NCBI GenBank assembly: GCA_017557405.1
Contig: JAFYYV010000028.1
Location: 124,001-188,000 of the forward strand
From: Prevotella sp.
Lineage (GTDB): Bacteria > Bacteroidota > Bacteroidia > Bacteroidales > Bacteroidaceae
Length of the DNA stretch: 64,000 nucleotides
Direction: 5' to 3'
Position 1 is the first letter of the stretch, and each line of letters starts with the position of its first letter. Positions 9,885 to 64,000 of the stretch are shown here, piece by piece. The position numbers and the translations under genes are program-made. Under the pieces are notes generated by a model. That model was not told the DNA's origin. It was given only the letters and a program-made list of their open reading frames with translations, and did not search any database.

Positions 9885-10910
9885 TCATTTGTCGATATTT
9901 ACCAACGTGTATTGGCGGCTGCCAAGACCAATCTTCTCGGCATGCTCGATGGTATGAACTCCATGCTGCTGGTCGATACGGTTCAACAGATCGGTGGGGT
10001 CGTTCTTCGCTGTCACTTTCTGTTGGTTGATGATGTCGATGCAGGCTTGGTCGAGAGCCACGGGATCGGTACTGGCCAGAATGCCGTAGTCCTCCAGTTT
10101 CACAGGTTCGGGATGGTCCACGCAATCGCAGTCAATCGACATGTTGTTCATCACCGAGATGTAGATGATGCCCTGTTTCTTCTCAAAGTAGTTCACCACA
10201 GCCTGAGCAGCAGCTGCCATACTCTCGAGGAAACCATCCTGATTGCCGATGTACTCAGGTGTCCACAGCTTCTCCATGTCGAGCTTTTCCATCTTACCGG
10301 CCGAGTGGATATAGGCCTTGCCGTTCTGGCTGCCACAGCCGATGGAGAGGTTCTTCAACGCACCACCATAGCCACCCATGGGATGTCCCTTGAAGTGGTT
10401 CAGGGCAATCATGAAGTCGTAGTTGGCCATGTGCGTTCCCACGATGTCGTACTTCAGGTGTGTCGAATCCTGTACGGGAATCCGCATCTCGCCCTCCTCG
10501 TCCATAATGTCAACCTTGAACGTAGGCGTAAAGCCATGCCGCTCGATGACCTTCCAGTGGTTGGCAGAGTTGTTGCGGTCGTCCTGCACATCCTCAGGCG
10601 CGTTGCCGTAGGCGGTGTTGCATTCCACGATGGTGCCGTCCACCTCCGCAATCAGGTTCTTGATGAGTTCGGGCTTCAGGTAGTTGGGGTTGCTGCCCTC
10701 GCCAGTGCTCATCTTGACAGCCACGCGCCCTTGGGCTTCCACACCCAGGGCTTTGTAGATTTTCACCAATGACTCAGGCGAAATCTCCCTGGTCAAATAA
10801 ACTGTAGGGGCATTCTTGTTTTCCATTGCTTCCTTTTTTGTGTTGTTTTTTTGTGTACATGCAACCGCCATCATCAGCAGTGCCGACATTGCTAATACTA
10901 TCTTCTTCAT
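9885..10910 (-). CDS. DUF362 domain lipoprotein
   Basis: 341 residues. Lipoprotein signal MKKIVLAMSALLMMAVAC (Cys18). The DUF362 core spans about residues 36-310, with VAVKMSTGEGSNPNYLKPEL, FMIALNHFKGHPMGGYGGAL and the C-terminal GILASTDPVALDQACIDII. Many DUF362 proteins also carry ferredoxin clusters; this one has only a few cysteines (DCDCVDH) and no 4Fe-4S pair. First gene of the redox operon with the iron-sulfur flavoprotein and ABM protein, which suggests electron transfer, but no reaction can be assigned. Promoter-like TATATTTG boxes lie upstream on the minus strand. Confidence 0.85.
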   Translation of the reverse strand: MKKIVLAMSALLMMAVACTQKNNTKKEAMENKNAPTVYLTREISPESLVKIYKALGVEAQGRVAVKMSTGEGSNPNYLKPELIKNLIAEVDGTIVECNTAYGNAPEDVQDDRNNSANHWKVIERHGFTPTFKVDIMDEEGEMRIPVQDSTHLKYDIVGTHMANYDFMIALNHFKGHPMGGYGGALKNLSIGCGSQNGKAYIHSAGKMEKLDMEKLWTPEYIGNQDGFLESMAAAAQAVVNYFEKKQGIIYISVMNNMSIDCDCVDHPEPVKLEDYGILASTDPVALDQACIDIINQQKVTAKNDPTDLLNRIDQQHGVHTIEHAEKIGLGSRQYTLVNIDK

Positions 10911-10953
10911 GCTATTTACTTTTTGGGGTTTGCAAAAGGTTATTAACTGGACT

Positions 10954-10987
10954 CAAATATATAAAATTTCGATTAAGCGAGAGCAAA
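10954..10987 (-). promoter_or_regulatory. Promoter of the DUF362 redox operon
   Basis: On the minus strand a -7 box TATATTTG (10954-10961) has TTTG (10984-10987) 22 bp upstream. A second TATATTTG box lies at 11038-11045. Confidence 0.5.
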
Positions 10988-11016
10988 GAAGTTTGTTTCA
11001 TTTGCCGAGCGTGAGT
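10969..11016. repeat. ~50-bp dispersed repeat
   Basis: TCGATTAAGCGAGAGCAAAG ... TTTGCCGAGCGTGAG. Related copies lie at 8490-8545 and, inverted, at 8870-8912. Confidence 0.6.
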
Positions 11017-11049
11017 AGCTTCGTGCAGAAATCTGCACAAATATACAAA

Positions 11050-11080
11050 AAAATCCTCCATATTATTGCGATATAGAGGA
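11050..11080 (-). terminator. Terminator of the GH2 gene
   Basis: On the minus strand TCCTCTATAT pairs with ATATGGAGGA across a CGCAATA loop with one mismatch, followed by a run of seven T. Confidence 0.7.
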
Positions 11081-11094
11081 GTCTTTTTGATTTT

Positions 11095-14000
11095 TTATGA
11101 GAATTGTCGTTCTTGGGAACGAACGACGGTTGTCATGAACTCTATCTCCACGATGCGTAGTTCATGGTTGGCTTCCCCACCATTCTTGGCTTTGAAGAGG
11201 TCGAGCTCGCCAGCGGCAGGCTCAGCCACCTCTACGATACCACCGAAGGCATCCTTGTCCTTGCCAGCTCCTTTCAGACGGATGGTTATCTCGTCGGTCT
11301 TGACAAGTTTGGTAGGCTTCAGGTGGATGTAGCCAAGGCTGCGCTCAGTTTCTCCACTCCATATAAGCGTCTTACCAGCATAGATTTCAATGGGATAACT
11401 ACGAAGTCGCCAGCCAGTGAGCTTCAGGCAGACGTCGTCTACGATGGTTTCCTTTGCGAGTTTGTAGGTAATCCACGCGGTGGAGAGGCGACCGTCATTT
11501 TTCCATTCCGAGAGTTCATTGTCGTCGTAGCTACGCCATGCATGTTCTGAGTCATAACCTGCGTTGGCAGAAACGATGCCTATGCTTTGAGCCTGCTCTG
11601 TGTAGGAAGCAGTCAACGGAGTCTCACCACGATCCAAACGGCTCTTAAGCGTCAGTTGCGGCAAATCACTCTCAACTCTCACCTCCGAGCTCTGCACTTT
11701 AATAAAGGCAGGTTTTATGCCCTCTGCGTATGCTGAAAGATGAATCTCTCCTGCGTTCGGGGTCGTACGGACGAGCACGCGGTTCACACCACACTCAACG
11801 GGAAGATTCATTGCGCCCACATAGTTGTCGGAGATGTTCTTCGTGGCAGCGGCGTCGAGAAGACCTTCCGACCGATTCTCGTCTGGGCGTTGCATATCAC
11901 TGTTCTGACGGGTGGCGATGCCCCCTATCCACTTGGCTTCGCCTGACAGCTCGAAATGAATCATGCGGTCATCGAGCGGACAGCGGTGGCCTTCCCTGTC
12001 GAGCACCTCCACTTGGAAAAGCACCATGTCGGCACCATCGGCCTTCGTTCCCTGAGGGTTCTCAATGGCGGTGAGTCTCAGCTGATAAGGTTCGCCCGCG
12101 GTCTCCAGCTTATAGCGACTTCCATCATTAGCTACAGCCTCCAGCGTGCCAGGCTCGAAAGGAACATCGTCGAAGGTGAAGAGATAGCGGTAGCTCTGAC
12201 GACCCTTGCCCAAGGAACGGCCATTCAGGAACAGTTCCACCTCGTCGCCAGTACTTACGACATAAACGGGAAGCCCCTTTCCTGCCTCCCCCAGATTGGG
12301 GAGGAGTTTTACCTTCTGTGGACTTTCCCCCTGTTGGGGGGATAAGAGAGTGGCTCTGTTCCAATGCCCGATGATATACGTCTTTGCCTCTTCGGGTTCC
12401 ACCCAGCCCGACCACATCACCTGATGGGCATAGAATGCATCCTTGGGGATGCGCATGGCATCGACGACACCACTGGTGCGATAGTTCGACTCACCACGAT
12501 GGTGGGTGTTCGTGTCGGAGAAGACAATCTTCACACCACCCGATGAGACTCGGGTGCCTGTACCCGGACGCTCACGCCAATAGTCGTACCAGCGGCGCAC
12601 CATCTCGATGGCCAGCTGGTCCATGTTGTGATTGTACTCGGTAGCAGGATTGCCACGATAAAGCGGACCTTCACCCTCTTTGTGATAAGGATAGCTCCAT
12701 TCGTCCCAGTATTTGCGCAAACCCTCGTCGCGACAGTACTCCATCGCCCACATGGGGTGCTTCTTCGACTTGTTGATATACAGCATCTCGCCACCATACT
12801 CCGCCTCGTCGATGTCGAGCATCTCACGACTGCCTATGGCGCGTCCGCCATGCGGGTCGTACTCATCGCGTATGTCCTTCATCACCAGCATGTGCTCGCG
12901 ACTGATGCTCTCGTTGCCGCATTCGTAGAAGAGTATCGAGGGGTTGTTACGGTTGTAGATGATGGCATCGCGCATCAACTCCGTGCGTTGTGCCCAGCGA
13001 GCGCCCTCCACATCCTTCTCGGCATCACCAGCAGGCATTGCTTGGATGAGCCCTACACGGTCGCACGACTCGACGTCCTGCTTCCAAGGTGTGACATGCA
13101 TCCAGCGCACCACGTTGCCACCCGACTCCACCATCAGCCCGTTCGAGTAGTCGCTCAGCCACGCAGGAACACTCAGCCCCACCCCAGGCCACTCGTTCGA
13201 CGTGCGTTGGGCATAACCGTGTACCATCAGGCAGCGGTCGTTCAGCCAAATCTTGCCCTCGCCGAAGCGAGTCTTGCGGAAGCCCGTGCGGGTTACGACC
13301 CGGTCGCTTCCGGCGTCATCGAGTGTTTCTCTCAGATAGGTTTCCACCGTATACAGATAACCGTAACCCCACGACCAGAAATGAAGCCCACGAAGCTCTT
13401 TTTCGGCCTTGGCAATAATGGTCTCTCCTGGTTGCAACGTCAACTTCTCGCTACCGTTGAATCCGGCTATCTTGTTGCCATCTTTGTCTTTCACAACGAC
13501 CGTCAGGAAGAATGTACGAGGCTTGTTGTCTTCATTTTTCACTTCAGATTCAACGTGAATCGTGGCTTTGCGGTTGGGAATGTCAAAGTCGGTGGCATAG
13601 ACATAAGTGCCCGTGGTGCCGAGATCGGAGTACAGCGGCAGCGTCTGGTAGAGCCTGTCCGTCACGTGCAGCCACACGTTCTTCGGAATACCACCGTAGT
13701 TGGTGTTGAAATTGCGGTCGTTCCACTGGTAGCGACTGTCGTGACGGCGCGAGCGATACGTCCAGCTGTTGTCACAGCGCACAGCCAGCACGTTCCTGCC
13801 CTTCGTGATGTAGGGCGTCAAGTCAAAGCCGCAGGCCATCACCCCATTCTCGCTGAAGCCCACGTGATGACCGTTCAGATAAACGTCCGCTCCCTGGCGT
13901 ACGCCCTCAAACTCGATGAAGTATTTAGCGGTGAGAGGTGAGGGGTGAGAGGTGAGAGAAAACACTTTCCTATACCAACAGATGGTGTCCGTCAGGTCGA

Positions 14001-14214
14001 CAATGTCCTTGCGGAAAGCCTCGTCGCCATTGAAGGCATAAGGCAGCGTCACTCGTTGCCACCGACTATCGTCGAACTCTACTTCTGCAGCCTCCGGCAC
14101 ATCGCCAACACACAGTCGCCAGTCGGCATTGAAATTAATACGTTCCCTACCTGTCGCAGCCAGAGGCATCATGAGTGTCATCAGGGCTACCCATATCGTC
14201 ATTTTTAGTCTCAT
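11095..14214 (-). CDS. Glycoside hydrolase family 2 protein (beta-galactosidase-like)
   Basis: 1039 residues. A signal-like N-terminus (MRLKMTIWVALMTLMMPLAA) is followed by the GH2 jelly-roll domain (INFNADWRLCVGDVPEA, YFIEFEGVRQGADVYLNGHH), an Ig-like domain, the TIM barrel (NRNNPSILFYECGNES holding the acid/base Glu; WAMEYC the probable nucleophile), and C-terminal DUF4982/Ig-like domains (VELFLNGRSLGKG). It cleaves beta-linked sugars from polysaccharides in the periplasm; specificity cannot be read. I start at 14214 as the signal peptide begins there; an ATG 7 codons upstream is possible. Three repeat-derived stretches interrupt the protein in frame (13931-13957, 12270-12346, 11666-11682). 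No SusC/D genes are near. Confidence 0.88.
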   Translation of the reverse strand: MRLKMTIWVALMTLMMPLAATGRERINFNADWRLCVGDVPEAAEVEFDDSRWQRVTLPYAFNGDEAFRKDIVDLTDTICWYRKVFSLTSHPSPLTAKYFIEFEGVRQGADVYLNGHHVGFSENGVMACGFDLTPYITKGRNVLAVRCDNSWTYRSRRHDSRYQWNDRNFNTNYGGIPKNVWLHVTDRLYQTLPLYSDLGTTGTYVYATDFDIPNRKATIHVESEVKNEDNKPRTFFLTVVVKDKDGNKIAGFNGSEKLTLQPGETIIAKAEKELRGLHFWSWGYGYLYTVETYLRETLDDAGSDRVVTRTGFRKTRFGEGKIWLNDRCLMVHGYAQRTSNEWPGVGLSVPAWLSDYSNGLMVESGGNVVRWMHVTPWKQDVESCDRVGLIQAMPAGDAEKDVEGARWAQRTELMRDAIIYNRNNPSILFYECGNESISREHMLVMKDIRDEYDPHGGRAIGSREMLDIDEAEYGGEMLYINKSKKHPMWAMEYCRDEGLRKYWDEWSYPYHKEGEGPLYRGNPATEYNHNMDQLAIEMVRRWYDYWRERPGTGTRVSSGGVKIVFSDTNTHHRGESNYRTSGVVDAMRIPKDAFYAHQVMWSGWVEPEEAKTYIIGHWNRATLLSPQQGESPQKVKLLPNLGEAGKGLPVYVVSTGDEVELFLNGRSLGKGRQSYRYLFTFDDVPFEPGTLEAVANDGSRYKLETAGEPYQLRLTAIENPQGTKADGADMVLFQVEVLDREGHRCPLDDRMIHFELSGEAKWIGGIATRQNSDMQRPDENRSEGLLDAAATKNISDNYVGAMNLPVECGVNRVLVRTTPNAGEIHLSAYAEGIKPAFIKVQSSEVRVESDLPQLTLKSRLDRGETPLTASYTEQAQSIGIVSANAGYDSEHAWRSYDDNELSEWKNDGRLSTAWITYKLAKETIVDDVCLKLTGWRLRSYPIEIYAGKTLIWSGETERSLGYIHLKPTKLVKTDEITIRLKGAGKDKDAFGGIVEVAEPAAGELDLFKAKNGGEANHELRIVEIEFMTTVVRSQERQFS
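12270..12346. repeat. GC-rich dispersed repeat inside the GH2 coding sequence
   Basis: Palindromic words CCTCCCCCAGATTGGGGAGG and TTTCCCCCTGTTGGGGGGAT encode the insert LLSPQQGESPQKVKLLPNLG in the minus-strand protein, between two conserved strands (HWNRAT and VYVVSTGDEVELF). Confidence 0.65.
13931..13957. repeat. GTGAGAG heptamer microrepeat inside the GH2 coding sequence
   Basis: Units GTGAGAG/GTGAGGG repeat four times. On the minus strand they encode SLTSHPSPLT between YRKVF and AKYFIEFEG, which should be neighbouring strands. Confidence 0.65.
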
Positions 14215-14252
14215 AGGTCTTCTTTCATCTTTCACATCGCACAGTTTCTTTG

Positions 14253-14260
14253 CAAAGATA
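14253..14260 (-). promoter_or_regulatory. -7 box of the GH2 gene
   Basis: TATCTTTG on the minus strand, 38 bp before the chosen start. No clear -33 element at the expected distance. Confidence 0.45.
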
Positions 14261-14302
14261 CAAAAAAAGTCGGTTCAGCGAGCACAATTGCCAAACATTT
14301 AC

Positions 14303-14310
14303 TATATTTG
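14303..14310 (+). promoter_or_regulatory. -7 box of the EamA gene
   Basis: TATATTTG, 27 bp before the ATG at 14338; no clear -33 element. Confidence 0.45.
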
Positions 14311-14337
14311 CATCATAATTTTAAAGCAGCTCGGAAT

Positions 14338-14754
14338 ATGTGGAAAGTCTATGCCTTGTTGTCAGCCCTGTTTGCTGCGCTGACAGCCATTTTCGCCAAG
14401 GTGGGCGTGAAGGATGTGAACTCCGACCTCGCCACCGCCATCCGCACAAGCGTCATACTCGTTCTCACGTGGGGCATCGTGTTGTTCGGACGACACGTCA
14501 GCGAAATCCGTGATGTCGGCAAAAACACCTGGCTATTCCTCGTGCTCTCAGGCGTCGCCACAGGCCTCTCGTGGCTGTTCTACTTCAAGGCCATCCAGTT
14601 GGGCGATGTCGCCCGAGTAGCCCCCATCGACAAGCTCAGCGTCGTCATCACCATCCTCCTCGCCTTCATCTTCCTCCACGAGCAAGTGAACCTGCGGGTG
14701 GTCATTGGCGCCCTGCTCATCACCGCCGGAAGCGTCCTGATGCTCATGAAATAA
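14338..14754 (+). CDS. EamA-family single-domain membrane transporter
   Basis: 138 residues with about five hydrophobic segments (starting WKVYALLSALFAALTAIFAK). The EamA pattern is seen in LSGVATGLSWLFYFKAIQLG, VAPIDKLSVVITILLAFIFL and the closing LITAGSVLMLMK. Half-size EamA proteins work as dimers in the inner membrane; the substrate is unknown. The start at 14338 follows a TATATTTG box; the longer frame would begin inside the promoter. Convergent with the BspA-like gene; a terminator lies at 14796. Confidence 0.85.
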   Translation: MWKVYALLSALFAALTAIFAKVGVKDVNSDLATAIRTSVILVLTWGIVLFGRHVSEIRDVGKNTWLFLVLSGVATGLSWLFYFKAIQLGDVARVAPIDKLSVVITILLAFIFLHEQVNLRVVIGALLITAGSVLMLMK

Positions 14755-14798
14755 GACTCCCCCACTCTTTTATCTCTTATCTCTCTATCTAAAAAAGA

Positions 14799-14833
14799 GC
14801 CACCAACTCTCCCGAGTCAGTGGCCGTTTTTTT
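14799..14833. terminator. Bidirectional terminator between EamA and BspA-like genes
   Basis: GCCAC / GTGGC with inner ACTC / GAGT, flanked by six A on the left and seven T on the right. Confidence 0.7.
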
Positions 14834-14853
14834 ATTTATATCTTCACAATGCC

Positions 14854-16569
14854 TCACCTACCCAATATGATGTTCACCAACGTGGTTACATCGTTGATGT
14901 TAACTTGGCCGTCGCCATCCATGTCACCCACTTGGGAAAGGTTGATGGTCGTGGTGGCGATGTCTGAATCCGTATAGCCGTCGCGAGTTGCCTTCACGCT
15001 TACTGTGAACGATGTGCCGAGAGAGATGACTCCATCTGTGCTTTCACCCGTAGAACCTGCAGGAGTGATGGTATAGACGTACGTCACGCCTTCCGTCTCG
15101 CATGTGCAGCGCACCTTGCCGTTTGCGTAGGTGATAGTGGGCGTGGCGCATTTATTGGCAAATTCAATGATCTCTTTGAACTCCTTCCAATAGTCAGCCG
15201 CCTCATAGAGGGTTTTGCTGCCTGCAGGCACGTAAAGCGTGGCATTGGCGCGGTTGGAGAAAGTTTCACTATAATCAATTGAAAGAGGTGTTTCTATATC
15301 TACTTTTACGGAGGTCAGGTTAGAACAGCCATAAAACGCATAACCACCGATGCTCGTCACGCTCGAGGGGATAGTCACGGAGGTCAGGTTGGAGCAATCT
15401 TGGAAAGCGTCGCTTCCGATGCTAGTAATATTCGAGGGGATGATGAATGAGGTTAGACTGGCGCAATGATAAAAAGCCCAATCGCCGATGGAAGTTACAC
15501 TAGAAGGGATGGTGATCTCGGTCATGCTTGTGCATTCAGCGAACGTGGCAAGACCAATGCTTGTCACATACTCAGGGATGGTGACCGAGGTCAAACTAGA
15601 GCAACCATAGAAAGCTTGCTTTCCAATACTGGTCACGCTGGTGGGGATGTCAATGGAGGTGAGGGCAGAGCAACCATAGAAAGCATAGTTTCCAATGCTG
15701 ATCACACTGGTGGGGATGTCAATGAAGGTGAGACTGGAGCAGCCAGAGAAAGCACTCTCTTCAATGCTGGTCACAGAATTGGGGATGGTCGTATTCTGGC
15801 AACCAGTTATTAGAGTATTGGTTTCCGTTTCAATAATACCATTACAATTATCACGCGAATCATATTTCGTATTCCCCGATTCCACACTGATAGAGATAAG
15901 TCCATTGCAAGCAACAAAAACACCCTTTCCAATGATGGTCACAGAATTGGGGATGGTCACAGAGGTAAGACCGGAGCAATTAGAGAAAGCATAGTTTCCA
16001 ATGCTGGTCACGCTGGTGGGGATGTCAATGGAGGTGAGGGCAGAGCAACCATAGAAAGCATCCTCTCCTATGCTGGTCACGGAGTTTGGAATGGAGATGG
16101 AGGTGAGACTGGAGCAGCCAAAAAACACATAGGATCCAATTCTCGAAACACTTGAAGGAATAGAGATGGAGATGAGGCTAGAGCAATCGTTAAAAGACCA
16201 ATCACCAATGCTTGTCACACTCGACGGGATGGTGACATTGGTCAGGCCTTTGCAACCTAGAAAAGCCCCATAGCCGATACTCGTCACACTCGACGGGATG
16301 GTTATAGACGTGAGACCGGAGCAACCATCGAAAGCCTCATATCCTATACTCGTCACATTACATGTCTCTCCTTCATATTCAATCGTTTTAGGAATGACAA
16401 TATCGCCAGTATAAGTGTTGATACTGTTAGAATAATTTGCTCTCACCTCTGCCGTTTGGTCATCGGTGTTGATGTAGTATTTGATATCATCAACAACGGC
16501 TACACCTGTATATGCACTTGACATCATTGGCAGGAACAACAAAACGATGAGTAATATTTGTTTTTTCAT
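14854..16569 (-). CDS. BspA-like leucine-rich repeat surface protein with dockerin tail
   Basis: 571 residues. Signal peptide MKKQILLIVLLFLPMMSSAY, then about 14 LRR_5 (Treponema pallidum/BspA-type) repeats of 23 residues with the pattern VTSIGxxAFxGCSxLTSITI between residues 75 and 420. One repeat is interrupted by about 45 residues. Then a short linker, an Ig-like domain (TPTITYANGKVRCTCETEGV), and a C-terminal dockerin-like calcium loop MDGDGQVNINDVTTLVNIIL. Such proteins are secreted adhesins or ligand binders in oral and gut Bacteroidetes. The near-identical repeats mean copy number may vary between strains. A consensus promoter lies upstream on the minus strand. Confidence 0.92.
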   Translation of the reverse strand: MKKQILLIVLLFLPMMSSAYTGVAVVDDIKYYINTDDQTAEVRANYSNSINTYTGDIVIPKTIEYEGETCNVTSIGYEAFDGCSGLTSITIPSSVTSIGYGAFLGCKGLTNVTIPSSVTSIGDWSFNDCSSLISISIPSSVSRIGSYVFFGCSSLTSISIPNSVTSIGEDAFYGCSALTSIDIPTSVTSIGNYAFSNCSGLTSVTIPNSVTIIGKGVFVACNGLISISVESGNTKYDSRDNCNGIIETETNTLITGCQNTTIPNSVTSIEESAFSGCSSLTFIDIPTSVISIGNYAFYGCSALTSIDIPTSVTSIGKQAFYGCSSLTSVTIPEYVTSIGLATFAECTSMTEITIPSSVTSIGDWAFYHCASLTSFIIPSNITSIGSDAFQDCSNLTSVTIPSSVTSIGGYAFYGCSNLTSVKVDIETPLSIDYSETFSNRANATLYVPAGSKTLYEAADYWKEFKEIIEFANKCATPTITYANGKVRCTCETEGVTYVYTITPAGSTGESTDGVISLGTSFTVSVKATRDGYTDSDIATTTINLSQVGDMDGDGQVNINDVTTLVNIILGR

Positions 16570-26832: not shown

Positions 26833-27026
26833 TTTGTTGCAGTTTCGTAGAAAAGTTATATCTTTGCACGTGTGTTTTTCATAGTATTAGATTTAAGGTT
26901 AACAAAGGTTGGGGTACAGCGGTACTCCATTTTTTTTTGCCATTTGTCAAAAAACAACAATGCTGATACATTGATTTCAAGATAATAAAAAACGCTGGGA
27001 CTTTCGGTCTCAGCGTCTTTTTGTTC
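26833..27026 (+). ncRNA. Candidate small RNA with own promoter and two terminators
   Basis: TTTG (26833-26836) and TATCTTTG (26859-26866) form a promoter (22-bp spacing). No convincing ORF follows. A first terminator GGGGTAC / GTACTCC with nine T spans 26911-26939, and a second, AACGCTGGGAC / GTCTCAGCGTC with five T, spans 26990-27022. Transcripts of about 65 and 150 nt are predicted. The converging minus-strand gene ends at 27045, and a third copy of CAGCGTCTTTTTGTT lies at 27046. It may instead be a decayed leader; no Rfam family recognised. Confidence 0.45.
26990..27022. terminator. Strong hairpin terminator
   Basis: AACGCTGGGAC / GTCTCAGCGTC with loop TTTCG and a T-run. Confidence 0.7.
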
Positions 27027-54587: not shown

Positions 54588-56090
54588 ATGACTGACAGAT
54601 TGTTTATTTTCGACACAACACTTCGCGACGGCGAACAGGTGCCAGGTTGCCAACTGAACACGGTGGAGAAGATCCAAGTGGCCAAGCAGTTGGAGTTGCT
54701 CGGCGTTGATGTGATTGAAGCAGGATTCCCTATCTCAAGTCCTGGTGATTTCAACTCGGTGATTGAGATCTCGAAGGCCGTTACGTGGCCGACGATTTGC
54801 GCGTTGACGCGCGCTGTACAGAAAGACATCGATGTGGCCGTCGATTCGTTGAAATATGCCAAACGCAAGCGCATCCATACGGGTATCGGCACGAGCGACG
54901 AGCACATCAAGTTCAAGTTCAACACCACCCGCGAAGAGATCATCGAACGTGCTGTCGCCGCCGTGAAATATGCGAAGAAGTTCGTGGAGGACGTCGAGTT
55001 CTATGCCGAGGACGCAGGTCGCACCGACAACGAATATCTTGCTCGTGTCGTTGAGGCGGTCATCAAAGCAGGTGCTACCGTTGTGAATATCCCCGATACC
55101 ACAGGTTATTGTTTGCCAAAGGAATACGGCGAGAAGATTAAATATTTGGTCGAACACGTGGACGGCATCCACAAGGCCGTTATTTCCACCCATTGCCACA
55201 ACGATTTGGGATTGGCCACCGCCAACACGTTCAGCGGAATTATGAACGGAGCGCGACAGGTGGAAGTGACCGTCAACGGAATCGGCGAGCGAGCCGGCAA
55301 CACGTCGCTCGAAGAGATTGCCATGATTCTGAAATGCCACAAGCAACTGGGCATCGACACCAACATCAACACGACGAAAATCTATCCCATCAGCCGCATG
55401 GTGTCGAGCCTGATGAACATGCCTGTCCAACCCAACAAGGCCATCGTCGGCCGCAATGCTTTCGCACACTCCAGCGGCATCCATCAGGACGGTGTACTGA
55501 AGAACGTGGGCACCTACGAGATTATCAACCCGAAGGACATTGGTCTTGACGACAACTCCATCGTGCTGACCGCCCGTAGCGGACGTGCCGCGTTGAAGTA
55601 TCGTTTGCATGTGAACGGTGTCGATTTCGACGACGAGGAGAAGCTCGAGAAGATATACCAGAAGTTCCTGAAGTTGGCCGACAAGAAGAAGGAGATCAAC
55701 GACGCCGACATTCTGATGCTGGCGGGTGCCGATACCTCCGACGCCCACGCGGTGAAGCTCGACTTCCTCCAGGTGACCACGGGTATGGGTGTTCGCTCCG
55801 TGGCCAGCATAGGACTCGACATCAGCGGACAGAAGTTCGAGGCCGCCTCGACGGGAAATGGTCCTGTTGACGCCGCCATCAACGCTCTGAAGAAGATCAT
55901 CATGAAGAAGATGACGCTGAAGGAGTTCACCATCCAAGCCATCTCGAAAGGCTCCGATGACGTTGGAAAAGTCCACATGCAAGTGGAGTACGACGGTGGG
56001 ATGTACTACGGCTTTGGCGCCAATACCGACATTGTGACGGCCAGCGTGGAGGCTTATATCGATTGTATCAACAAATTCAAAAAAGAATAA
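54588..56090 (+). CDS. leuA: 2-isopropylmalate synthase
   Basis: 500 residues. HMGL-like TIM barrel with [60 protein letters not shown] and the Ser/His of [11 protein letters not shown]-terminal LeuA dimer (leucine feedback) domain at residues 375-500 ([20 protein letters not shown]). Condenses acetyl-CoA with 2-oxoisovalerate, the committed step to leucine. First structural gene of the operon, behind the attenuator, 2 bp before leuC. Confidence 0.96.
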
Positions 56091-57482: not shown

Positions 57483-57977
57483 ATGAAGTTTCTATCAATC
57501 ATCTGTGCGATGTTCGGAGTGTTCTCCTCTTGCGCAACAACCGTAAAAGACAAGGATTGGCAACAGACCTCGAAGGTCGTCTATCGCCATTCCACCCCGA
57601 CCATCACGCCCGAGTACTACCGCTCCTTCAGCGTCACCATCGACCAGGAGGCCGCGGTGGTCGACATCCGCAATTACAGCTCCTCGTTGCTCACCAAGCG
57701 CATACCCCTCACCGCAGGGCAGTTCAAGGCGTTTGTCAGCAAGCTCCAGCAGGCGGGTGTGACGAAGCGGAAGGAGGTCGATTCGGCCGCTAGCGGATGC
57801 GAGTCTCAGTCGTTGAGCCTCTACAAGGGCGACAACGAGTATTTCTCCGCCTACGAGGCGTGTGGCGCCGGAACCCTGAAGGTGAAGGACGGCGACCTCG
57901 GCGACCTCGTCCGCGAACTCGTTCCCGACCTCGACACGCTGATTGAACAGACACTCCACAACGATCATGAGGAATAA
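57483..57977 (+). CDS. Putative lipoprotein lodged between leuC and leuD
   Basis: 164 residues. Short lipoprotein signal MKFLSIICAMFGVFSSC (Cys17). The rest is a beta-rich polar domain (YYRSFSVTIDQEAAVVDIRN, RIPLTAGQFKAFVSKLQQAG) with two further cysteines (SGCES, EACGAG) that I do not recognise. It is 7 bp behind leuC and 3 bp before leuD, so it is co-expressed with leucine synthesis, although a lipid-anchored envelope protein has no known part in that cytosolic pathway. Confidence 0.75.
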   Translation: MKFLSIICAMFGVFSSCATTVKDKDWQQTSKVVYRHSTPTITPEYYRSFSVTIDQEAAVVDIRNYSSSLLTKRIPLTAGQFKAFVSKLQQAGVTKRKEVDSAASGCESQSLSLYKGDNEYFSAYEACGAGTLKVKDGDLGDLVRELVPDLDTLIEQTLHNDHEE

Positions 57978-57980
57978 AGT

Positions 57981-58571
57981 ATGAAACAGAAATTCGATAT
58001 CATCACCAGCACCTGCGTGCCCCTTCCTTTGGAGAATGTGGACACCGACCAGATCATCCCCGCCCGCTTCCTGAAAGCCACCGACAAAGAGGGCATGGGC
58101 GACAATCTGTTCCGCGATTGGCGTTACAATCCCGATGGCTCCGTCAAGAAGGATTTTGTGTTGAACGACCCCTCCTATAGCGGCGTCATCCTTGTCGTCG
58201 GCAAGAATTTCGGAAGTGGTTCGAGCCGCGAGCATGCCGCGTGGGCGATTGCCGGCTACGGGTTCCGCGTGGTCATCAGCTCGTTCTTCGCCGACATCCA
58301 CAAGAACAACGAGCTCAACAACTTCGTCCTGCCTGTGGTGGTCAGCGAGCCGTTCCTGCAAGAGCTGTTCGACTCCATCGCCAAAGACCATCAGACGTTG
58401 GTAGAGGTCGATCTGCCCCGCCAGACGGTCACCAACAAGGCCACCGGACATAGTGAGCATTTCGACATCAACGGTTACAAGAAACATTGCCTGATGAACG
58501 GCCTCGACGATATAGATTATCTGGTGGCCAATCAAGACAAGACAGAAGCATGGGAGCAACGAAACAAATGA
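57981..58571 (+). CDS. leuD: 3-isopropylmalate dehydratase small subunit
   Basis: 196 residues, swivel domain of the aconitase family: LENVDTDQIIPARFLKATDK, VVGKNFGSGSSREHAAWAIA (substrate phosphate-like loop), and FRVVISSFFADIHKNNELNN. Works with LeuC. Its stop overlaps the next start (ATGA). Confidence 0.96.
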   Translation: MKQKFDIITSTCVPLPLENVDTDQIIPARFLKATDKEGMGDNLFRDWRYNPDGSVKKDFVLNDPSYSGVILVVGKNFGSGSSREHAAWAIAGYGFRVVISSFFADIHKNNELNNFVLPVVVSEPFLQELFDSIAKDHQTLVEVDLPRQTVTNKATGHSEHFDINGYKKHCLMNGLDDIDYLVANQDKTEAWEQRNK

Positions 58572-60175
58572 ATGCCAAGACGAATAAAGAGAGTGTTTTA
58601 AGTGCTGGCGACAGCATGACCGTAAAAGGGAGGATGAAGAAGCGTCCTTTCATAGAGATCATGGATTGCACGTTGCGCGATGGTGAGCAGACCAATGGTG
58701 TCTCGTTCCTGCCGCACGAGAAGTTGATGATTGCCCGCAAGCTCATGGGCGAGGTCAATGTCGACCGCATCGAGGTGGCCTCGGCGCGTGTCTCCGAGGG
58801 CGAGAAAGACGCCGTTCGCATGATCTGCCGCTATGCGGAAAGCATCGGCCGGTTGGATAGGGTGGAGGTGCTCGGCTTTGTCGACGGACATGTCTCCATC
58901 GACTGGATTCGCTCGTGTGGCGGACGCGTGGTCAACATGCTGGTGAAGGGTTCCAAGAAACATTGCACGGAGCAGTTGGGGAAGACTCCCGAGGAGCACA
59001 TCGCCGACATCCTGCAATGCGTGGAGTATGCCGACCAACAGGGCATCGCCGTCAACGTCTATCTCGAGGATTGGAGTTCGGGCATGCGCGACTCCCTCGA
59101 CTATGTCTATCAGCTGATGGACGCGTTGACAAAGACCTCCATTCGTCGCTTCATGCTCCCCGACACCCTGGGTATCATGCACCCCCTGCAATGCGTCGAG
59201 TACATGCGCAAGATGATGAAACGCTATCCCGATGTGCACTTCGACTTCCACGCCCACAACGACTACGACCTGGCTGTCTCCAACTCGTTGGCGGCCGTCC
59301 TGAGTGGTGCGCGCGGACTTCATGTAACAGTCAACGGATTGGGTGAACGTTGTGGAAACGCCCCGCTGGCCAGCGTGCAGGTCATCTTGAAAGACCATTT
59401 CAACGCCCGCACCAGCATCCGCGAGGAGCGGCTCAACGACATCAGTCGCATGGTGGCGGCCTATAGCGGCATTGGCATCGCTCCCAACGTGCCCATCGTG
59501 GGCGAGAGTGTCTTCACCCAGGTGGCGGGCGTTCATGCCGATGGCGACACCAAGAGCAACCTCTATCAGAATGAGCTGAAGCCCGAGCGTTTCGGACGCA
59601 AACGCGAGTATGCCCTTGGAAAGAACTCCGGTCGTGCCAACATCGCCAAGAACCTCAAGGAGCTGGGCTTGGAGCTCACGCCCGAGCAGACGAAGCGCGT
59701 CACGCAACGCATCACCGAGCTGGGCGACAAGAAGGAGATTGTCACGCAGGAGGACCTGCCCTACATCGTCAGCGACGTCCTGAAACACGACACGCCCGAC
59801 GATAAGGTGAAGCTCATCAGCTACGTCGTCTCCACTGCCTACGGTTTGAAGCCGGGCGCCAACGTGAAGGTCGAGATCAACGGCAAGCAATACGAGGCCG
59901 CTGCCACTGGCGACGGTCAGTACGACGCCCTCGTGAAGGCCCTGCGCTACATCTACAAGAAGTACCTCAACCGCACGTTCCCCATCCTCGCCAACTACGC
60001 CGTCTCCATCCCTCCCGGTGGTCGTACCGACGCCCTCGTGCAGACGGTCATCTCCTGGCATCACGGCGATGGACTCCTGCGCACCCGCGGCCTCGACGCC
60101 GACCAAACAGAAGCAGCCATCAAGGCCACCTTCAAAATGCTGAATATTGTTGAAAACGAGTTAACTACGAAGTAG
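58568..60175 (+). CDS. Second 2-isopropylmalate synthase-type enzyme (possible citramalate synthase)
   Basis: 535 residues. HMGL-like domain with MDCTLRDGEQTNGVSFLPHE, HFDFHAHNDYDLAVSNSLAA and NGLGERCGNAPLASVQ, then an extra C-terminal LeuA dimer-type domain (residues 405-535: LISYVVSTAYGLKPGANVKV). It differs from the leuA product of the same operon at the substrate region. Such paralogues are either (R)-citramalate synthases feeding isoleucine or second isopropylmalate synthases; the sequence alone does not decide. The ATG at 58568 overlaps the leuD stop; longer starts read back into leuD. Confidence 0.88.
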   Translation: MNAKTNKESVLSAGDSMTVKGRMKKRPFIEIMDCTLRDGEQTNGVSFLPHEKLMIARKLMGEVNVDRIEVASARVSEGEKDAVRMICRYAESIGRLDRVEVLGFVDGHVSIDWIRSCGGRVVNMLVKGSKKHCTEQLGKTPEEHIADILQCVEYADQQGIAVNVYLEDWSSGMRDSLDYVYQLMDALTKTSIRRFMLPDTLGIMHPLQCVEYMRKMMKRYPDVHFDFHAHNDYDLAVSNSLAAVLSGARGLHVTVNGLGERCGNAPLASVQVILKDHFNARTSIREERLNDISRMVAAYSGIGIAPNVPIVGESVFTQVAGVHADGDTKSNLYQNELKPERFGRKREYALGKNSGRANIAKNLKELGLELTPEQTKRVTQRITELGDKKEIVTQEDLPYIVSDVLKHDTPDDKVKLISYVVSTAYGLKPGANVKVEINGKQYEAAATGDGQYDALVKALRYIYKKYLNRTFPILANYAVSIPPGGRTDALVQTVISWHHGDGLLRTRGLDADQTEAAIKATFKMLNIVENELTTK

Positions 60176-61573: not shown

Positions 61574-64000
61574 ATGATTGCATTCATTGATACAGAGGTT
61601 AATCCCCAGACTAAGAAAGTGGCTGATTACGGAGCAGTAAGGGAGGATGGTGCAGTTTTGCACACTCATTCCAAAGCTGACTTTGATGCCTTTGTATCTT
61701 TGTGCGATACAGTGTGCGGCCATAATATCATTAGTCACGACCTGAAGTATACTGCATTGAGGGGCAATCCAACAATTGTTGATACATTAGTTTTATCACC
61801 CCTATTGTTCCCAAAACGACCTTATCACCATCTGGTGAAAGATGACAAATTGCAGGTAGACGAATTGAACAATCCTGTAAATGATTCTATGAAGGCACGT
61901 GATTTGTTGAATGACGAAATGGCCGCGTGGAACCAATTATCATCTGGCAAACAGGAAATCTACTATCAGTTGCTGCATGATTCATACCAATTTGAAGGTT
62001 TTTTCAAATACATAGAATATTCCTCGTCTACACAACAATCTTTGTTGGGGAGAATTTTGAGAGTTCAACCTAATTGGGCCAAATTAATCCTAAAAGAGTT
62101 CGAGGGCAAAATATGTAGTCATGCTGATTTTGACGCGTTGGTCAGATTGTATCCAATAGAATTGGCATACTGTTTGGCTGTAATAAGTGCTGACGACATA
62201 TTCTCTATCACTCCCGCTTGGGTGGTACGAAACTACCCCCAAGTAGTCAACGTAATGAACCTACTGTGTAACACTTCTTGTGGAGATTGTGATTATTGTC
62301 ATAGTCGCTTAGATGCTCACAGTGGACTAAAGGCTTTTTTCGGCTATGATGAGTTTCGCACTTTTGACGGAGTGCCAATGCAGCAACAAGCTGTTGAATC
62401 TGCTATCCGTGGAGAATCGTTACTAACGATATTTCCAACTGGTGGTGGCAAAAGTCTCACCTTCCAACTTCCAGCATTAATGGCTGGTCGAAACACTCAT
62501 GGGTTGACGGTTGTAATTTCACCTTTACAGTCGTTAATGAAAGATCAGGTTGACAACTTGGTGGCTCGTGGCATCAGTGATGCTGTCACTATTAATGGTC
62601 TGCTTGACCCAATAGAGAGATCTGTAGCAGTCAATCAAGTAGCGGAAGGAACGGCTAATATACTTTATATTGCCCCAGAGATGTTACGCAGTAAAACTAT
62701 TGAGAAACTGCTAATAAGTAGGAATATTGTTCGTTTTGTGATAGACGAGGCTCACTGCTTCTCAGCATGGGGGCATGATTTCCGTGTGGACTACTTGTAT
62801 ATCGGTGATTTCATTCGTCAGTTACAAGAGAAGAAAAATTTGGATCAACCTATTGCCGTTTCATGTTTTACCGCAACTGCAAAACAAAAGGTTGTCAGCG
62901 ATATTTGTGATTACTTCAGGGCAAAACTTGGTTTAGAACTAACCCTTTTTGCTGCCAATGCGGAAAGAAAGAATTTGCGCTACTCTGTACTCCACGCTGA
63001 CACTCCCGATGAGAAATACAACCTGTTGCGCTCTCTCATACTCGGACACAACTGCCCTTCGATTGTTTATGTTTCACGTACTCGACGCACTCGTGAATTA
63101 GCAAATCATTTGGTCAACGACGGTATACGAGCATTGCCATTTAATGGCAAGATGGAGGCCGCAGAAAAGGTGAAGAACCAGAATGCGTTTATGAATGGCG
63201 AAGCGCAAGTCATTGTGGCTACTTCTGCTTTCGGTATGGGAGTTGACAAAAAAGATGTGGGATTGGTAGTGCACTATAACATCAGCGACTCGTTGGAAAA
63301 CTACGTTCAGGAGGCTGGTCGCGCAGGGCGAGACCCACAAATGCAAGCAGAATGCTATGTCCTGTATGCAGATAACGACCTCGACAAGCATTTCATACTC
63401 CTCAACCAAACCAAACTTAGTATAAGTGAAATTCAACAGGTATGGAAAGCCATCAAGGATCTCACGGCTAAACGGGATCAGGTGAGTTGTTCGCCATTAG
63501 ACATTGCACGACAGGCCGGATGGGATGAAGATGTGGAAGATATTGAAACGCGAGTAAAGGCAGCAATTGCCGCACTAGAGGATGCAGGATTCGTACAGAG
63601 AGGCAGTAACACTCCACATATCTTTGCTACAGGAATTGCAGTGAAGAACATGGATGAGGCGCGTCGAAAATTGACTATCTCACCACTCTTTGATGAACAG
63701 TCGCGAGAGGAAGCAGCTCGTATTATCAAATCGCTTATCAGTGCACGTGCTACTGTTGAAGGTCGGGGAGCCGAAGCAGAGAGTCGTGTTGATTATCTGG
63801 CAGATGTTCTAGGAATGAGTAAGGCGACTGTAATCAGGAACATCAACCTGATGCGGCAAGATGGCTTATTGGCAGACAGTCGTGACATGCAAGCATGGAT
63901 TTCCAAGAGCACTTCCCTACGCAACCTTGACGTCATTTTAAAGTTAGAACAATTCCTTTTGCAACGATTTGGAGAAGAAGCACAAAGGATGAACTATAAG
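61574..64000 (+). CDS. DEDD exonuclease-RecQ helicase fusion (3' end cut by window)
   Basis: At least 809 residues, open at the right edge. N-terminal DnaQ-like exonuclease: MIAFIDTEVNP (Asp/Glu of motif I), CGHNIISHDLK (motif II), and NNPVNDSMKARDLL near residue 102 (motif III). A helical linker leads to a Cys cluster C232-x3-C-x2-C-x2-C242. Then RecQ: Walker A FPTGGGKSLTFQLP (near 289), VIDEAHCFSAWGHDFR (near 388), SCFTATAKQK, TSAFGMGVDKKDV and QEAGRAGRDPQ (near 581), followed by winged-helix segments. Order exonuclease then RecQ is like eukaryotic WRN. DNA repair or anti-phage role possible. It has its own promoter behind the leu terminator. Confidence 0.9.
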   Translation, partial: MIAFIDTEVNPQTKKVADYGAVREDGAVLHTHSKADFDAFVSLCDTVCGHNIISHDLKYTALRGNPTIVDTLVLSPLLFPKRPYHHLVKDDKLQVDELNNPVNDSMKARDLLNDEMAAWNQLSSGKQEIYYQLLHDSYQFEGFFKYIEYSSSTQQSLLGRILRVQPNWAKLILKEFEGKICSHADFDALVRLYPIELAYCLAVISADDIFSITPAWVVRNYPQVVNVMNLLCNTSCGDCDYCHSRLDAHSGLKAFFGYDEFRTFDGVPMQQQAVESAIRGESLLTIFPTGGGKSLTFQLPALMAGRNTHGLTVVISPLQSLMKDQVDNLVARGISDAVTINGLLDPIERSVAVNQVAEGTANILYIAPEMLRSKTIEKLLISRNIVRFVIDEAHCFSAWGHDFRVDYLYIGDFIRQLQEKKNLDQPIAVSCFTATAKQKVVSDICDYFRAKLGLELTLFAANAERKNLRYSVLHADTPDEKYNLLRSLILGHNCPSIVYVSRTRRTRELANHLVNDGIRALPFNGKMEAAEKVKNQNAFMNGEAQVIVATSAFGMGVDKKDVGLVVHYNISDSLENYVQEAGRAGRDPQMQAECYVLYADNDLDKHFILLNQTKLSISEIQQVWKAIKDLTAKRDQVSCSPLDIARQAGWDEDVEDIETRVKAAIAALEDAGFVQRGSNTPHIFATGIAVKNMDEARRKLTISPLFDEQSREEAARIIKSLISARATVEGRGAEAESRVDYLADVLGMSKATVIRNINLMRQDGLLADSRDMQAWISKSTSLRNLDVILKLEQFLLQRFGEEAQRMNYK

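Follow-up and report, generated by a model that had tools for sequence, protein, structure and literature searches.

In this study, a 64,000-nucleotide stretch of a Prevotella sp. genome (the window; G000:C16:124001-188000 of the host assembly) was analysed, and the gene that begins at window position 61574 on the forward strand was found to encode an exonuclease-like domain, a RecQ-type superfamily 2 (SF2) helicase and a UvrD-type superfamily 1 (SF1) helicase in one chain. The best reading of this gene, to which we give a probability of about 55%, is that its product is an accessory two-motor helicase-nuclease acting on foreign or invading DNA. That reading draws on the combination of two motors with an exonuclease, the patchy occurrence of the gene, its carriage on plasmids and the defence-type operon partners found in a subset of its relatives.

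Architecture of the protein

The open reading frame (ORF) has no stop before the end of the window and is open to position 64000. Read in the host assembly, it ends at G000:C16:190280 (window position 66280) and encodes 1568 amino acids (aa), of which residues 1-809 lie inside the window (61574..64000, + strand) and the remaining C-terminus beyond it. The domains follow one another on the + strand as a DEDD exonuclease-like domain (61574..61936, residues 1-121), a helical connector with a cysteine cluster (61937..62320, residues 122-249), a RecQ-type SF2 helicase core (62321..63409, residues 250-612), a helical and winged-helix-like region between both helicases (63410..64000 for its in-window residues, 613-809) and, beyond the window, a UvrD-type SF1 helicase at residues ~1040-1460, recognised by Pfam and by the fold of a homologue. 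A small beta-rich part at the C-terminus was seen in the structure model of a homologue. Conservation was assessed in 71 rows, made up of the window protein and 70 of 80 GTDB genome loci, 10 loci having been dropped as cut or broken; the alignment is near full length in 70/70 intact loci, and the architecture is thus fixed. An earlier reading of the window from its letters alone (the sequence-only reading) had proposed an exonuclease ahead of a RecQ helicase in a single bacterial protein. This arrangement, with a true RecQ, is conserved across homologues; the SF1 helicase, revealed when the contig was extended past 64000, had been missed.

Both motors were recognised with confidence. Pfam placed DEAD and Helicase_C at residues 268-586 above their cutoffs, and the NCBIfam RecQ family matched residues 252-613 with a score of 276.4 (cutoff 219.8). 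The RecQ core motifs FPTGGGKS, DEAHCFSAWGHDFR, FTATA and QEAGRAGRD were identified, the second of which we take to be the aromatic-rich loop. In the C-terminal half, UvrD-helicase (PF00580; 115.3, cutoff 23) and UvrD_C (PF13361; 67.2, cutoff 25.6) were found between residues 1047 and 1455, and a Foldseek search with the model of a homologue (L052) gave PcrA and UvrD as top matches. The catalytic residues of both motors are near-invariant: GGGKS, DEAH and DEAQD were present in all 70 intact loci and the strict GxGSGKT in 68. By analogy with other RecQ and UvrD enzymes, each motor would have the polarity of its family.

The helicase had been described earlier as a full RecQ, which holds for the core. 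The four-cysteine RecQ-Ct zinc module that usually follows the core is missing, only C594 and C639 being found within residues 590-720. When the full protein was searched with Pfam up to E 1, a range in which the HMMER filters drop most matches above ~0.1, the 22 matches included no RQC or HRDC model and no PD-(D/E)XK nuclease domain. Weak helix-turn-helix (HTH)/winged-helix matches, below cutoffs, were observed at residues 733-770. The host genome encodes two further RecQs over the family cutoff, in frames of 730 and 649 aa, so the RecQ of the window is an extra copy, and a role as the housekeeping RecQ was rejected.

A zinc cluster of the form CX3CX2CX2C had been proposed for residues 232-242. 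The motif is present in the window protein; however, C232 is replaced by Arg in 25 of the 71 rows, and the cluster as a unit was therefore given up in favour of a set in the connector comprising C181, C236 and C239, which are invariant, and C242, which is kept in 70 rows. These four residues probably form a zinc site. A distant member (L134) is without the set.

The DEDD motifs of the N-terminal domain were retained throughout. D6, E8, D56 and D104 are identical in 71/71 rows, in 19/19 rows when the window protein was compared with 18 loci of the host's taxonomic family, and in five plasmid members that are 28-54% identical overall; loss in most homologues was thus not seen. Also invariant or nearly so in the 71 rows are H50-N51, D70-T71, the YHxLxK motif (H85, K89) and the NNPVND motif (N99, D104). 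In a divergent copy on a viral contig (L128), the last Asp is exchanged for Cys. An AlphaFold model of the 809 in-window residues had a mean predicted local distance difference test score (pLDDT) of 76. Within residues 1-150, 13 of 15 ten-residue blocks scored 83-94, and the blocks covering residues 81-100 scored 70 and 46. Strands were predicted at residues 2-10, 15-23, 28-31, 46-49 and 67-70 and helices at 34-41, 71-78 and 101-121. This order is as in DnaQ folds; D6 and E8 fall on strand 1, and D104 is close to where the last helix begins.

Profile comparison points to the same superfamily. With hhalign, used in place of HHpred, residues 1-150 matched 15 DnaQ-type (DnaQ/RNase_T) sequences with a probability of 89.4% (E 2e-6, 50 columns), which agrees with the DnaQ fold expected from the sequence-only reading, and four PolB-type exonucleases with 83% over 20 columns. 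The sets are those left after one DnaQ-type row of 16 (L189, stop in the cut) and one PolB-type row of five (L222, cut short) were dropped. Against 13 RNase D-type sequences the probability was 1.45%, and one of 60 column shuffles scored as high or higher. For comparison, DnaQ and PolB, whose relation is known, give 82.6% on this scale, and the true members DnaQ and RNase D give only 11.8% with each other; a low RNase D score taken alone is thus weak evidence. The negatives remained low: 23 neighbour families gave at most 3.1%, the 60 shuffles of the N-terminal profile peaked at 0.87% against DnaQ and 3.08% against PolB, and reversing the profile gave 0.33% and 0.09%, respectively. These comparisons suggest that residues 1-150 are tied to the DnaQ/PolB exonucleases rather than to the RNase D class.

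Other searches returned mainly the helicases. Foldseek with VIA-align on the whole 809-residue model gave RecQ-family chains only among the 50 PDB matches listed, and in a viral structure library mostly helicases were matched. In PHROGs, no match was found for residues 1-244, and those of the whole protein were confined to the two helicase parts or to residues 961-1084. The N-terminal profile had five matches among PDB sequences (E at least 0.24), with no exonuclease among them. Pfam run on 31 N-termini reported DNA_pol_B_exo1 in six (best 5.5e-4) and RNase_T in one (0.065); these matches were rejected as evidence because a chance match to EBV-NA3 (1.7e-4) scores better. Based on the conserved residues, the order of secondary structure and hhalign, the domain is best described as a divergent, putative 3'-5' exonuclease of the DEDD (DnaQ) superfamily.

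Distribution and genomic context

At least 577 relatives were found in GTDB genomes, of which 80 were retained. The gene is patchy: it is present in 21/101 genomes of the host family (E<=1e-100) and in 15/395 genomes of the phylum, the host's own genome being counted in both. In the phylum genomes, each of the 15 matches of the N-terminal profile falls within an open frame of 1575-1731 aa, so the domain was encountered there only in proteins of this size; for three of these rows, stop codons are reported inside the match. Record titles name Bacteroidales, Clostridia, Gracilibacteraceae and Opitutales bins, which may hold foreign contigs. The four Bacillota rows need three changes on the tree and one of them pairs with an Opitutales row, in a tree made by a quick method with long branches flagged, which is no proof of transfer. 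The gene is accessory and has probably moved between lineages.

Plasmids carry the gene as well. The N-terminal domain was matched in 25 plasmid records, including those of Rhizobium, Cereibacter, Paracoccus, Nostoc and Bacteroides. Motifs and full-length alignment showed both helicases in each of five plasmid copies examined, all annotated merely as 'RecQ family ATP-dependent DNA helicase'. A copy on an Aliarcobacter plasmid adjoins ParA/ParB and is near replication genes. In IMG/VR, nine loci were found on eight putative viral contigs. Three of these contigs (L124, L125, L128) share an ORF of ~490 aa that, judged from its sequence alone, is recombinase-like, a sign of possible carriage by an integrating element. 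The idea of a phage gene was rejected after zero matches in 50,697 phage records.

In the window, the gene follows leuB. Among 14 same-genus leuB flanks, taken from 17 other leuB-bearing genomes and with more than 8 kb downstream in 11 of the 14, the gene was beside leuB in none. This points to insertion of the window copy behind leuB, with loss in the other genomes as a further possibility. The adjoining leucine cluster has features of its own. A 164-aa lipoprotein-like ORF (57483-57977, +), unusual in a biosynthetic operon, lies between genes that we call leuC-like and leuD-like from their translations, and two genes (54588-56090 and 58487-60175, +) are presumably isopropylmalate/citramalate synthases, as their sequence motifs suggest.

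Neighbouring genes were surveyed at the 80 genome loci and eight viral-contig loci, where a crude caller predicted 1072 ORFs. Those that recurred most often beside the gene were a Nudix protein (16 loci), a Schlafen-group-3 (SLFN-g3) helicase (11) and Vsr (7). PADLOC labelled their representatives PDC-S07 (Nudix), PDC-S41 (SLFN-g3) and Vsr, and others mREase_IV (DUF3427/PLD) and PDC-S26. Close neighbours on the same strand (overlap up to 60 bp, gap at most 50 bp) numbered 41 across the 70 intact loci: seven SLFN-g3 (PDC-S41), three Nudix (PDC-S07), two PD-DEXK (PDC-S26), two DUF5131, one DUF3427/PLD, one HTH and 25 others, among them a second PLD/ResIII enzyme at L040. In six of the pairs that the gene forms with a Nudix or an SLFN-g3 neighbour, the two genes overlap by 4 bases, and both gene orders occur. 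The SLFN-g3 pairs L062/L068 and L086/L087 are close relatives, so the partner pairs are not all independent.

For comparison with controls, 148 neighbours were reduced to 144 (two of L101 and one each of L102 and L105 were dropped for a cut or broken gene) and then to 95 on the same strand; with the two largest (L029, L069) left out, 93 were scanned. At E<=1e-20 these matched 91 PADLOC families, compared with 27 for 93 control genes chosen by seeded shuffle from 307 ORFs in 20 regions of six host-family genomes, the cases coming from more varied taxa. PDC-S41 had eight members among the neighbours, PDC-S07 six, mREase_IV four and PDC-S26 three; no control family had more than two. At least one of eight representative neighbour families occurred at 31/80 loci (1,324 kb) in the set used to pick them, a choice that favours linkage. 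The link to defence genes is real in part of the protein family, namely in one Bacteroidales set where the gene is often operonic with them; in the host-family genomes, where it mostly stands alone, no such enrichment was seen.

Smaller observations were made at individual loci. Across loci L028-L107, the Nudix protein (PDC-S07), the SLFN-g3 helicase (PDC-S41) and the DUF3427/PLD enzyme recur jointly or singly and in either order; the three could be components of a separate, modular system. A protein of 256-272 aa lies directly behind the gene at L047:14719-15486 and L053:14664-15479 (+), the L047 copy being without a Pfam match. At L003, a 370-aa ORF (10310-11422, -) with no Pfam match up to E 0.001 is convergent with the RecQ-UvrD gene across a gap of ~28 bp, and HNH-type, HU-like and peptidase-like ORFs, named from their translations, lie downstream of the gene (13026-15871, +) and read like mobile-element remnants. 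Elsewhere in the host genome, a 1716-aa ORF (L270:4870-10020, -; G000:C47) has DEAD at residues 735-911, Helicase_C at 1049-1151 and two matches that stay under their cutoffs, one to the RecQ family and a weak one at 436-496 to the restriction-endonuclease-like MTES_1575; it is another large nuclease-helicase candidate. An Rfam FopS small RNA (RF04319) was detected at window positions 26872-26940 (+) with 76.2 bits (gathering score 56).

Possible roles

As an accessory enzyme directed at foreign DNA, the protein would load on 3' ends or gaps of DNA foreign to the host chromosome, such as phage or plasmid replication intermediates. The RecQ and UvrD motors would then unwind the duplex and displace proteins bound to it, leaving the released 3' strand to be digested by the N-terminal domain. 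Some family members would act jointly with operonic partners, namely the Nudix hydrolase, the SLFN-g3 helicase and the PLD/ResIII/DUF3427 enzyme. A wider proposal, which we put forward tentatively and at somewhat less than even odds, is that the protein is an undescribed, widespread, single-chain analogue of RecBCD with a DEDD exonuclease of a new subclass (Asn for His/Tyr), RecQ and UvrD, serving as an interphylum immune module with optional partners (Nudix, SLFN-g3 helicase, DUF3427/PLD) in a modular anti-invader system. In PADLOC 2.0.0, no model of its own was seen for an exonuclease-RecQ-UvrD system. PDC-S07 is listed in tables or counts of defence-system surveys (PMC11514479, PMC13356809).

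A number of observations weigh against a role in attacking invading DNA, and part of them concern the nuclease. The His of the DEDDh class, five residues before the last Asp, is N99 in 71/71 rows, and the Tyr of the DEDDy class, four before it, is N100, again Asn in every row. With Asn as the fifth catalytic residue, the exonuclease could be weak or dead. Pfam recognises nothing in the N-terminus of the window protein, and the hhalign signal comes from the GHNII-HD motif region together with the strand that follows. The domain might accordingly be pictured as a catalytically silent module that binds 3' ends, within a double helicase that remodels DNA undigested; the Cys for the last Asp in L128 fits this too. 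We consider it very improbable: the four metal-binding acids are invariant in all rows and kept in five distant plasmid members, a pattern that a dead site would not be expected to show. H85 and K89 of the invariant YHxLxK motif might be stand-ins for the missing His/Tyr.

The remaining adverse points concern the genomic setting. No relative was found among 50,697 phage records, and the window copy stands alone after leuB. Of the close neighbours, 25/41 are without a recurrent defence label. Among the 91 PADLOC families, 25 come from one YhcG-type neighbour and are nearly all PDC-S02 models; the control total of 27 is likewise inflated, by AbiEii and PD-T4-6 models. Ordinary genes recur as well, with BipA/TypA in three and AhpC-type proteins in two of the 93 neighbours. 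In the host family, at least one of the eight representative neighbour families was found at 5/21 loci (360 kb, own locus counted) compared with 4/21 controls (455 kb), and a close same-strand partner other than a fragment of the gene itself was present at 1/21. The best PADLOC match of the protein reaches 327 bits and covers the RecQ part only, among the best 25 of 73, and the PADLOC candidates (PDC-S07 and others) are, as we understand them, predictions.

The mostly solitary state of the gene in host-family genomes would also suit an accessory enzyme of DNA repair or recombination that works at lesions or stalled forks by resecting ends or taking out a damaged strand, like the exonuclease-containing DinG of Staphylococcus aureus (SaDinG) or the MrfA/MrfB pair of Bacillus, which deal with mitomycin C damage. 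RecQ and UvrD helicases and 3'-5' exonucleases are familiar components of repair, neighbours of the Nudix (MutT-like) and Vsr types fit such a role too, and bacterial SF2 helicases with DEDD exonuclease partners act in mitomycin C repair (PMC12345164; PMC11194089). We nevertheless regard this reading, the main rival, as rather unlikely: the gene is very patchy (21/101 host-family genomes) and carried on plasmids, the host has two other RecQs, and the operonic partners in the other subset belong to PADLOC candidate-defence families. The sequence-only reading had named repair or defence and suggested looking for defence genes nearby. Such genes were enriched in one Bacteroidales set and not in the host-family genomes, window included; gene context in part of the family tentatively leans to defence.

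Less probable still is that the gene serves mobile elements, either by processing the intermediates that plasmids and integrated elements form as they replicate or transfer, or by fighting competing elements. The 25 plasmid records, the Aliarcobacter copy beside ParA/ParB and the nine loci on eight IMG/VR contigs, three of which share the recombinase-like neighbour, would agree with it. However, most copies are on genome contigs not known as plasmids and have varied neighbours, the phage records hold no match, and, viral contigs aside, no conserved transfer or replication gene was recognised in the top 40 neighbour clusters or in the best 25 of 88 neighbour Pfam families.

If the proposed activity of a two-motor helicase-nuclease is true, this protein would make it possible to study within one enzyme how motors of two superfamilies, SF2 and SF1, and a 3'-5' exonuclease work on a shared DNA. 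A clear biochemical question is posed by the invariant Asn found where the catalytic His/Tyr would be. The annotation 'RecQ family' hides a second motor and a nuclease-like domain, so many genes of this type (at least 577 relatives) may be misfiled when RecQ or defence genes are surveyed.

Comparison with known helicase-nuclease systems

The likeness to human WRN noted in the sequence-only reading holds for the order of domains, an exonuclease domain N-terminal to a RecQ SF2 helicase, and the helicase resembles that of WRN both in sequence and in fold. The exonuclease of WRN is of the RNase D/DEDDy class, and WRN is not known to have a UvrD SF1 helicase. In contrast, the exonuclease profile of the window protein is DnaQ/PolB-like and not RNase D-like (1.45%), the DEDDy Tyr is replaced by Asn, no RQC or HRDC model was among its Pfam matches, and its C-terminus is a UvrD SF1 helicase. 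Orthology to WRN was rejected on these grounds.

Helicase-nuclease fusions are a known kind, and the exonuclease-RecQ-UvrD combination may be undescribed: no description of such a protein was found in the literature searched, which was covered by titles and the starts of abstracts, subscription papers being mostly outside its scope. In the available text of PMC5512222, UvrD helicases occur in other polyvalent proteins, and RecQ-like helicases appear in the reference list only. Bacterial DEDD exonucleases fused to, or working with, an SF2 helicase are described for mitomycin C repair (PMC12345164; PMC11194089). SaDinG is reported to have D10/E12 on strand 1, D95 at a helix start, and H149 and D154 at a later helix start (PMC12345164), and the acids of the window protein are placed likewise. 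In SaDinG the DEDDh His is present (H149) and the helicase is of 5'-3' polarity, whereas the window protein has RecQ and UvrD, and Asn at the His position. MrfA/MrfB resemble it in pairing a DEDD exonuclease with an SF2 helicase in bacteria (PMC11194089).

Among defence systems, the RecQ half matches DpdF (Dpd) and the UvrD half matches GajB (Gabija) models. The score against the DpdF family (NCBIfam NF041063) is 204.8 bits, compared with a cutoff of 550, and no PADLOC model among the best 25 of 73 spans both helicase halves; membership of Dpd, Gabija or another PADLOC system was rejected, the matches among these 25 being partial only. RecBCD, AddAB and AdnAB combine motor units and a nuclease in one machine. 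Their chains match the SF1 part of the homologue model, below PcrA and UvrD. Unlike these machines, the window protein is a single polypeptide in which one motor is of the SF2 type and the nuclease-like domain is DnaQ-type instead of PD-(D/E)XK. Its resemblance to RecBCD-type machines is one of working parts, not of membership.

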